In this document: positions 20,844 through 23,081 of the stretch, piece by piece | Position numbering within the stretch: position 1 is the first letter of the stretch | Layout: every line of letters starts with the position of its first letter | Assembly: GCA_023705905.1 (NCBI GenBank) | Contig: BPTK01000002.1 | Span: 1 to 36,262 of the forward strand | Origin: Candidatus Heimdallarchaeota archaeon | Lineage (GTDB): Archaea > Asgardarchaeota > Heimdallarchaeia > Heimdallarchaeales > Heimdallarchaeaceae | Direction: 5' to 3' | Length of the DNA: 36,262 bases | Notes under the pieces: generated by a model | What the model saw: only the letters and a program-made list of their open reading frames with translations | Databases searched by the model: none | Told to the model about the DNA's origin: nothing | Translations under genes and position numbers: made by a program

Positions 20844-22142
20844 TTAATCACCGGGTAAAGGGGCGATTGTTTCAGTTTTTACATTGGTGAAATTAAATAA
20901 GCGTGTTTTGATGCTTAGGAGAATTATTCCAAGAAGTAGTATTCCACTTGCCATCAACATAGTGTTTGCGATTCCTATTGCTTCTGATGTCAAACCTGAG
21001 AGTGATAAGCAAGCTACACTGAAGATCTGAATATAGGCATTGGTAGCACTATATGCTCTCCCTCTAATTTCATTAGGAACTTCCTCAGCAAAATAGGCAT
21101 TGATACTAAGACTATGCATTCCTAACATTACGCCAGATATAAAGCCAAAGACTCCGATTACATAGATTGATGGTGTAAATATGAATATCATATAATAAAC
21201 TGCCAAAGCTACTACACCGGCTACTATTGCCCTGTTTCGTCCTATTTGCTTCTCAAATTTAGCAAAGAGTATGTTTCCTATAACGGTTCCCAGTGCTACA
21301 ACTGCACCAACAATTCCATATTCAATATTTGCTACTTGCTCAAGAGCTACATTTCCACTATGTCGTATCTCGAAGATCCAGGGATATATCAAGGGTCCTG
21401 CAAAAGCTGAACCGATCACTACGAAAGTAAACAATATCAATAACACTCTGATTATTCTTTGTCTAAAGAGAAAGCCTAATCCTTCACCTAGATCACTGAA
21501 GATTGTTCTGACAGTTAATTTCTCCTCTTTATCCCTTGATGCTGAGGGGATTGTAGTCAATAGTATAATTGCACCGGACAAAACATAACATCCACTTGTT
21601 ATCCAAAAAGCTGGTGGCCCGAAGAATGCATAAATTGGAGCAGCCATAAGAGGTCCTAAGACTGCTAATGTTTGAAAGATAAGCCTACTGATACTAATGG
21701 CTTTTACATATAATTTCAGTCCTACCATCTCAGGTATAGCTGCTGATCTTGGTGCTGAGAAGCTTGATGATCCCACCCCATCTATGAAAGCTATAATTAG
21801 CAAAATATAGAAAGTGTTGATAAAAGGAATCGCTATTATCGAAGCTGCTCTAATGAAATCAGCTGTAACCATTATTGTTTTCCTACTAATTCTGTCAGCC
21901 AATACCCCTGAAATTGGTCCAATTAAAATCCAAGGCAATGTTTGTGCTGCTAAAACAAATGTCATTTGAGCAGCTGATCCAGTAAGACTGTATACATAAA
22001 GCACAATTGCTATTCTAAAAACCGCATCTCCTACATTACTGAACAATTGTCCTGAAAGCAGTTTAACAAAATTCTTATTTTTGAAAACATCCCTATAGGA
22101 CGCTTCTTCACTTACTATTTCATTTTCTGTCAATGTTTCCAC
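20844..22142 (-). CDS. MFS transporter (drug/macrolide-efflux type)
   Basis: About 12 TM; NFVKLLSGQLFSNVGDAVFRIAIVLYVYSLTGSAAQMTFVLAAQTLPWILIGPISGVLADRISRKTIMVTADFIRA. Confidence 0.9.
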   Translation of the reverse strand: METLTENEIVSEEASYRDVFKNKNFVKLLSGQLFSNVGDAVFRIAIVLYVYSLTGSAAQMTFVLAAQTLPWILIGPISGVLADRISRKTIMVTADFIRAASIIAIPFINTFYILLIIAFIDGVGSSSFSAPRSAAIPEMVGLKLYVKAISISRLIFQTLAVLGPLMAAPIYAFFGPPAFWITSGCYVLSGAIILLTTIPSASRDKEEKLTVRTIFSDLGEGLGFLFRQRIIRVLLILFTFVVIGSAFAGPLIYPWIFEIRHSGNVALEQVANIEYGIVGAVVALGTVIGNILFAKFEKQIGRNRAIVAGVVALAVYYMIFIFTPSIYVIGVFGFISGVMLGMHSLSINAYFAEEVPNEIRGRAYSATNAYIQIFSVACLSLSGLTSEAIGIANTMLMASGILLLGIILLSIKTRLFNFTNVKTETIAPLPGD

Positions 22143-22295
22143 CTATTTCTTATACAATAAATAAAAATAAAAGAAAAATTAAAGCAAGCTTCTTTTTTGT
22201 AGCATAACTTTTTCAAAGAATGCTAGCTTCTGTCTTTCCATTTTAATTTTGATTTGATCCTGTTTCTTTTTGCTTGTTATCATTTTTTTCACCGT

Positions 22296-22395
22296 TTCTC
22301 ATTTAGTTCGAGAAATGTTCTCATATTATGTAAGAATTAGGTGTATTTAAACGTTTCTCATGTTAAGTGAGAATGAGTATCATTATTAATGAGAA
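22296..22395. promoter_or_regulatory. Four-site palindromic operator array (TTCTCA-N7-TGAGAA)
   Basis: Sites at 22296-22314 (TTCTCA..CGAGAA), 22318-22336 (TTCTCA..TAAGAA), 22355-22373 (TTCTCA..TGAGAA, perfect), 22377-22395 (GTATCA..TGAGAA); lies between divergent transporter and HTH regulator genes. Confidence 0.75.
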
Positions 22396-22445
22396 ACTTT
22401 ATATATTCCTCTACAGCTCGTTATATTGTAAGTGAGTTAATTATC

Positions 22446-23081
22446 ATGTCTTATCAAGATATAATAGAAGAAGAACAAAAATCAGTCATTTATATTGACA
22501 ATGAAGATACTCTAAAGTACCTGCACAATCCCTTATACTTACCTATACTTAAAATTCTAAGGTTAGGATATAAAACCTTCAAAGAGATAAAAGAGGAGTA
22601 TGTTACTCATTCCAGTACAGTGCCTCCCGACAAGACTTTGTATAGGCACTTGAATAGTCTAAAGGAAGTTGGATTAATCTTTGAGTTTGGAAAAAGAGTC
22701 TATAAAGGGCAATCAATGACCGAAAAATTATTTTCTCGAACTGCAAAATTCTTTCATTCTGCGAAGAAAATGGATGATGACGAATACGACAGTAAAATTA
22801 AGAAACAGTCAAAAATCTTGTCAAAGTTCTTTAGTTTGGCTTACAATGTCCCTGATGTTAAAGCGGGATGTCTTGAAGTTTTATTGAAAAAGCTACATTC
22901 TGTTGATCTTGAGGGGATAAGTGCAATCTTCCAGAAATTCCCCGATGAAATCGCCGATATCGCCGGTAACCTTCCTCACGAGGAACTACAAGCAGTTGTT
23001 GATGAATACATACGTCTTAACTCAGTAATTGCTTCTCCAAACATCCTTGAAGAGCTAAAGAAGTGTTTAGACCTTAAGTAG
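22446..23081 (+). CDS. ArsR-like wHTH transcriptional regulator
   Basis: YLHNPLYLPILKILRLGYKTFKEIKEEYVTHSSTVPPDKTLYRHLNSLKEVGLIFEFGKRV = wHTH. Start trimmed: the upstream ATG (22389) lies inside palindrome 4 and upstream of a TATA-like sequence. Confidence 0.75.
   Translation: MSYQDIIEEEQKSVIYIDNEDTLKYLHNPLYLPILKILRLGYKTFKEIKEEYVTHSSTVPPDKTLYRHLNSLKEVGLIFEFGKRVYKGQSMTEKLFSRTAKFFHSAKKMDDDEYDSKIKKQSKILSKFFSLAYNVPDVKAGCLEVLLKKLHSVDLEGISAIFQKFPDEIADIAGNLPHEELQAVVDEYIRLNSVIASPNILEELKKCLDLK

Follow-up and report, generated by a model that had tools for sequence, protein, structure and literature searches.

What the palindromes between a divergent pair of genes, for an MFS transporter and a winged-helix regulator, are for is the question raised by this locus of an Asgard archaeon. 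The window, by which we mean the whole stretch of DNA analysed (36,262 nucleotides), corresponds to contig 2 in the draft genome (3.74 Mb) of a Heimdallarchaeota archaeon; Asgard archaea are the closest known prokaryotic relatives of eukaryotes. A preliminary description had taken the four palindromes in the gap for an operator of the neighbouring regulator, common to the regulator and the transporter. Our analysis points the same way: with a probability of about 0.78, the array serves the adjacent PH1932-like regulator as its operator, through which this protein would repress both itself and the MFS operon. The conservation of the array and the recurrence of its half-sites beside paralogous regulators support this part of the earlier proposal, and its layout had to be corrected to two blocks, with a small ORF lying between the operator and the MFS gene. 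In all likelihood the array serves as the on/off switch belonging to an apparently undescribed family of regulators.

Layout of the array

The features of the locus are as follows.

20844-22142, minus strand: MFS transporter gene, start GTG at 22142 or TTG at 22133
22179-22283 including the stop (22182-22283 plus stop), minus strand: conserved 34-aa small ORF, MITSKKKQDQIKIKMERQKLAFFEKVMLQKRSLL, the first gene after the MFS-side promoter
22296-22336: putative operator block 1 (palindromes 1 and 2), TTCTCA-N7-CGAGAA-N3-TTCTCA-N7-TAAGAA, conserved in L044-L051
22296 (start): palindrome 1, TTCTCA-TTTAGTT-CGAGAA, 1 mismatch to TTCTCA-N7-TGAGAA
22318 (start): palindrome 2, TTCTCA-TATTATG-TAAGAA, 1 mismatch
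22344-22351, minus strand: TATA box of the small-ORF/MFS promoter, TTTAAATA, 7 of 8 columns invariant in five orthologues
22355-22395: putative operator block 2 (palindromes 3 and 4), TTCTCA-N7-TGAGAA-N3-GTATCA-N7-TGAGAA, conserved in L044-L052
22355 (start): palindrome 3, TTCTCA-TGTTAAG-TGAGAA, 0 mismatches
22377 (start): palindrome 4, GTATCA-TTATTAA-TGAGAA, 2 mismatches
22398-22405, plus strand: TATA box of the regulator promoter, TTTATATA, 7 of 8 columns invariant in five orthologues
22446-23081, plus strand: gene for the 211-aa regulator, a PH1932-like (ArsR-type) winged-helix protein whose C-terminal part is helical

On re-reading of the sequence, the four palindrome starts reported earlier (22296, 22318, 22355 and 22377) were all exact, and both the 22-bp spacing claimed within each pair and the 59 bp between pairs were recovered (start-to-start distances 22, 37 and 22 bp). 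The accompanying view of four independent 19-bp palindromes fits less well than two blocks of four half-sites, because the spacer inside the palindrome varies (N7, N6, and N5 in paralogues) and the N3 join is nearly fixed. Judged by its sequence, the array is best read as two blocks, each of the form TTCTCA-N6/7-TGAGAA-N3-TTCTCA-N6/7-TGAGAA.

The number of sites was unremarkable. Allowing up to two mismatches, the 19-bp motif occurred 7 times in the window against 4.67 expected, which is not unusual. Genome-wide statistics were derived from pattern searches, and in the genome itself the motif was matched 41 times against 20 for the reversed control, a count that is not decisive; three further exact N7 sites were found there, two of them within ORFs. 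The case for the array was built on its arrangement and conservation: the sites are clustered and evenly spaced beyond what chance would give, and this holds foremost for their conservation. A separate site in the same genome (L003 1480-1530, C118), TTGAGAA-N4-TTCTCA-N7-TGAGAA, lies 5' of a gene for a predicted secreted protein of ~450 aa and may mark an extra target.

Conservation in orthologous loci

The divergent regulator-MFS pair with the array was found in at least nine other species of the genus. Regulator orthologues shared 70-66% identity in four species and 42-34% in five more, and the MFS orthologues opposite them about 69-85%. The named relatives matched by the regulator alignment were all Candidatus Heimdallarchaeota or 'Asgard group' MAGs, for example AB_125. 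In L044-L051 the two genes diverge with the operator in the shared intergenic region, as in the window, and they diverge in all five of L006, L007, L009, L011 and L012. At L052/L064 the assembly ends at the operator, with block 2 visible on the contig edge, and in G009 (L132) the MFS side and part of the array are what can be seen. A look at orthologous intergenic regions had been proposed as a check of the motif, and the array was kept in every locus examined.

The layout in the orthologues was examined by an unbiased fit of four half-sites with the spacers left free. As a result, TTCTCA-N6/7-TGAGAA-N3-TTCTCA-N6/7-TGAGAA was obtained twice, 58 or 59 bp apart, at most loci, with a weaker fit at L048 and L051. 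Among the five closest orthologues, 47 of 48 half-site columns were invariant versus 19 of 48 columns in spacers and gaps (N7 spacers 9/28, N3 3/6, remaining gap 7/14), a difference with a permutation p of about 5e-5. Around position 2900 of L051, two additional weak half-sites are found in block 2, in phase with the same 21-bp period; the array looks as though it had been extended by one unit.

The regulator and its family

The regulator start at 22446 agrees with the earlier reading. An upstream ATG at 22389 was ruled out as a start for the promoter with the TATA box at 22398-22405, since it precedes that box. AlphaFold2 modelled the regulator with confidence (mean pLDDT 89.7), with a winged helix at the N-terminus and a C-terminal part made of helices. 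By Foldseek, the nearest solved structure was PH1932 (1uly; E 1.6e-7, TM 0.52-0.56), followed by PadR, VanR and ArsR-type repressors, and profile comparison also gave PH1932 as the nearest solved protein by sequence, along nearly its full length (E 3.7e-9, residues 12-213). The nearest solved relative, at about 20% identity, is therefore a Pyrococcus horikoshii protein whose structures (1uly, 2cwe) were deposited under the name of an ArsR homologue; in the literature searched no operator was found for it, and its deposited names give a hypothetical regulator only. The protein had been called MarR/ArsR-like. The ArsR part of that label is broadly upheld by the PH1932 fold and profile, and the MarR part falls away, as no MarR model was among the Pfam or NCBIfam matches of the regulator. 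Pfam HTH_5 (ArsR) was not listed for the window protein; against its cut-off of 22, the protein at L044 scored 19.7 and that at L050 23.2. An MCM_C Pfam match was rejected as a below-threshold hit (23.3 vs 27) that picks up only the winged-helix signal.

The regulator belongs to an expanded family with about 5-10 members per genome in most genomes of the genus. Clade A, with the window locus and N6/7 spacers, is sister to clade B, with N5 spacers (SH-aLRT 95). In clade B the regulator gene is transcribed divergently from one for a 295-aa protein that looks GNAT-like by eye and has no Pfam or NCBIfam match. Clade B genes carry a double block as in clade A but with N5 spacers, and at one clade B member (L054) the double block is lost. 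No block-type site was found in the 250 bp upstream of the tested genes in other family branches.

A relaxed block pattern gave 41 matches in 21 genomes of the genus, versus 2 for a reversed-pattern control. Thirty of the 41 were fetched for locus assignment. A family regulator is present at 23 of them, and 2 more are at the clade B GNAT-like gene at the end of a contig; 4 lie 5' of genes of a second GNAT-like group (one placed there by synteny), and the last falls within a gene for a DNA methylase. In all, 29 of 30 stand at a family regulator or its two linked GNAT-like gene groups. Perfect TTCTCA-Nx-TGAGAA sites were then counted in ten listed genomes, with sites within 1 kb of a family gene scored as near. 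Near sites made up 19/27 for N5, 4/9 for N6 and 6/15 for N7 (29/51 in total), and 0/24 for N3, N4, N8 and N9. A genome scan for the motif had been proposed, with random scatter as the outcome that would count against an operator; instead, over half of the perfect N5, N6 and N7 sites were near family genes, and none of those with the other spacer lengths counted. These spacer-length counts tie the half-site to the regulator family and point to a clade-dependent spacer preference.

Within the blocks, N3 is fixed and N6/7 varies in clade A, and N5 is fixed and N3 is sometimes N4 in clade B. The reading in which TGAGAA-N3-TTCTCA is the sole true dimer site is attractive in clade A, but the N5/N4 pattern of clade B speaks against it, as do single TTCTCA-N5-TGAGAA palindromes at the promoters of GNAT paralogues (L091, L100, L106 and L116). 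At these four loci, which hold the second GNAT-like gene, the N5 palindrome is directly 5' of the TATA box, with apparently almost no leader; this gene is probably a distant target of a family regulator. Tandem arrays of at least three family regulators, with TTCTCA-N5-TGAGAA in an internal gap, were seen at L092, L096, L104, L108 and L115, and L131 (G017:C86, 1866-4700) holds two family regulators, each with a nearby TATA box and then an N5 palindrome at the predicted start.

Tentatively, and at somewhat less than even odds, Heimdall-type Asgard archaea may have an expanded PH1932-like family with a common half-site, TTCTCA, in which each regulator recognises its own operator in part from the length of the spacer, N6/7 for the MFS clade and N5 for sister clades. 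The family would run locally autoregulated modules, namely a transporter, a GNAT-like protein, regulator arrays and an oxidoreductase, some of them with a conserved tiny leader ORF. The half-site letters had no match in the literature search, and no operator code for an Asgard regulator was found in the literature searched. An autoregulated divergent repressor is of a textbook kind; the family, the half-site and the clade-dependent spacer appear undescribed in that literature. At this locus one can read the regulator, its DNA site, the promoter elements and the candidate targets side by side and check them with purified protein and no need for culture. The spacer difference between clades A and B makes it possible to test directly how regulators, once duplicated, come to be insulated from one another.

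The proposed switch and the genes under it

Two archaeal TATA boxes in opposite directions lie between the regulator and MFS genes; both had been noted before, a few bases off the positions given here. Block 2 is placed exactly between them, with its outermost half-sites at the BRE positions of both promoters. On the minus strand the outer half-site ATGAGAAACG adjoins the TATA box TTTAAATA, and on the plus strand the outer half-site ATGAGAAAC adjoins TTTATATA. TFB must bind at the BRE. From the TATA box at 22344-22351 and archaeal promoter geometry, the MFS transcription start is predicted 20-30 bp away, where block 1 would cover it and the early leader. With the blocks at the BREs and at the start site, a bound regulator would shut both promoters.

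The following sequence of events is proposed. Several dimers of the regulator would sit next to one another on the TTCTCA/TGAGAA half-sites of the two blocks. On block 2 the protein would cover the BREs of both divergent promoters and keep TFB and TBP off the DNA, and on block 1 it would cover the start region of the 34-aa ORF and MFS operon. When no signal is present, the regulator would thus repress its own gene and the transporter operon by blocking TFB/TBP and RNA polymerase; a ligand or stress would release it, and both promoters would open. Established directly are the sites and how well they are conserved, where they lie with respect to the TATA boxes, the fact that they recur next to paralogous regulators, and the fold of the protein. 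Binding, repression, relief by a signal and export of something harmful by the transporter are inferred.

The same geometry can be turned around. An activator of one or both promoters could recruit TFB/TBP from block 2, whose outer half-sites abut both BRE/TATA elements, and use block 1 for negative feedback at high protein level; TFB-RF1 is reportedly an archaeal activator of this kind, which recruits TFB to a weak BRE. Such a role is unlikely for the regulator, as block 1 sits downstream of the TATA box at the predicted start, a repressor position, and the paralogue sites at 2672 and 4260 of L131 also lie downstream of TATA at the predicted start. The sites might also be bound by another protein, either a family paralogue, of which each genome has five to ten with the same class of half-site, or an unlinked factor such as a Fur-like one, since part of block 2 (AGAATGAGTATCATTATT) resembles a Fur box. 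We consider this quite unlikely: the site and the regulator gene are kept together in every locus, and the Fur-like box was rejected because its right half varies among orthologues and the conserved columns track the TTCTCA/TGAGAA half-sites.

That the repeats are promoter sequence (an extended BRE) or chance symmetry in AT-rich DNA, with no protein-binding site, is very improbable and already disfavoured by the conservation data. TGAGAA half-sites do overlap the BRE, and by simple counting the motif is no more frequent in the window than chance would give. However, the half-sites of block 1 lie away from any TATA box and are equally conserved, and promoters in general cannot give the spacer-length spectrum or the link to family genes.

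Repression by the adjacent regulator has a direct archaeal precedent in MsvR of Methanothermobacter and Methanosarcina, which also has inverted-repeat boxes in a divergent intergenic region. MsvR is autoregulated and excludes TBP/TFB; its boxes lie over the BRE/TATA of the gene that encodes it and over the start site of the target transcribed in the other direction, and a 1-bp change in spacing is tolerated (PMC3729527). It differs in its half-site, TTCG...CGAA (boxes TTCG(TA)-N-(TA)CGAA) rather than TTCTCA/TGAGAA, in a V4R domain C-terminal to the winged helix, for which the present regulator has no Pfam match, and in its targets; no double blocks of four half-sites are described for it. Phr of Pyrococcus furiosus, an ArsR-family heat-shock repressor, binds over promoter/start-site DNA (PMC6316755). 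Phr (2p4w) is a weak fold match to the regulator, and differs in its recognition elements (TTTA, TGGTAA and AAAA) and its targets. Bacterial PadR/VanR and ArsR/SmtB proteins are likewise winged-helix repressors, PadR and VanR being among the fold-search matches, but the winged-helix part alone aligns well, with a TM of about 0.3 over the whole query.

On the side of the transporter, the MFS protein is a match to Pfam MFS_1 and MFS_3. Its best NCBIfam model, TIGR00900 (H+ antiporter), scored 201.9 bits, below the cut-off of 319.6, and weaker matches were to the Mef and EntS exporters. The 34-aa ORF between block 1 and the MFS gene shows a pN/pS mostly of 0.3-0.6 between species and is present once at the MFS locus in 10 of the 21 genomes of the genus. 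An eleventh genome-level match, in G017, stands beside another family regulator with an N5 palindrome; at its MFS locus, G017 has an ORF that resembles it by eye and starts with TTG. Just before the stop, a C-terminal LYxGS is well conserved in most members and less so in the window copy. The ORF is a candidate leader peptide or small regulatory or working protein.

Ahead of the 34-aa ORF, an extra basic ORF of ~55 aa (DERIKALELELNQLKRARRARR) was seen in L050 and L051, in the operator-MFS gap, and in L132 (1-260), and its sequence is conserved across the three genomes. At L131, one regulator heads a series made up of a distant 34-aa ORF homologue, a 74-aa ORF and a FAD-dependent oxidoreductase-like gene, and an 86-aa ORF with a similar LHRGIL tail is also present at this locus.
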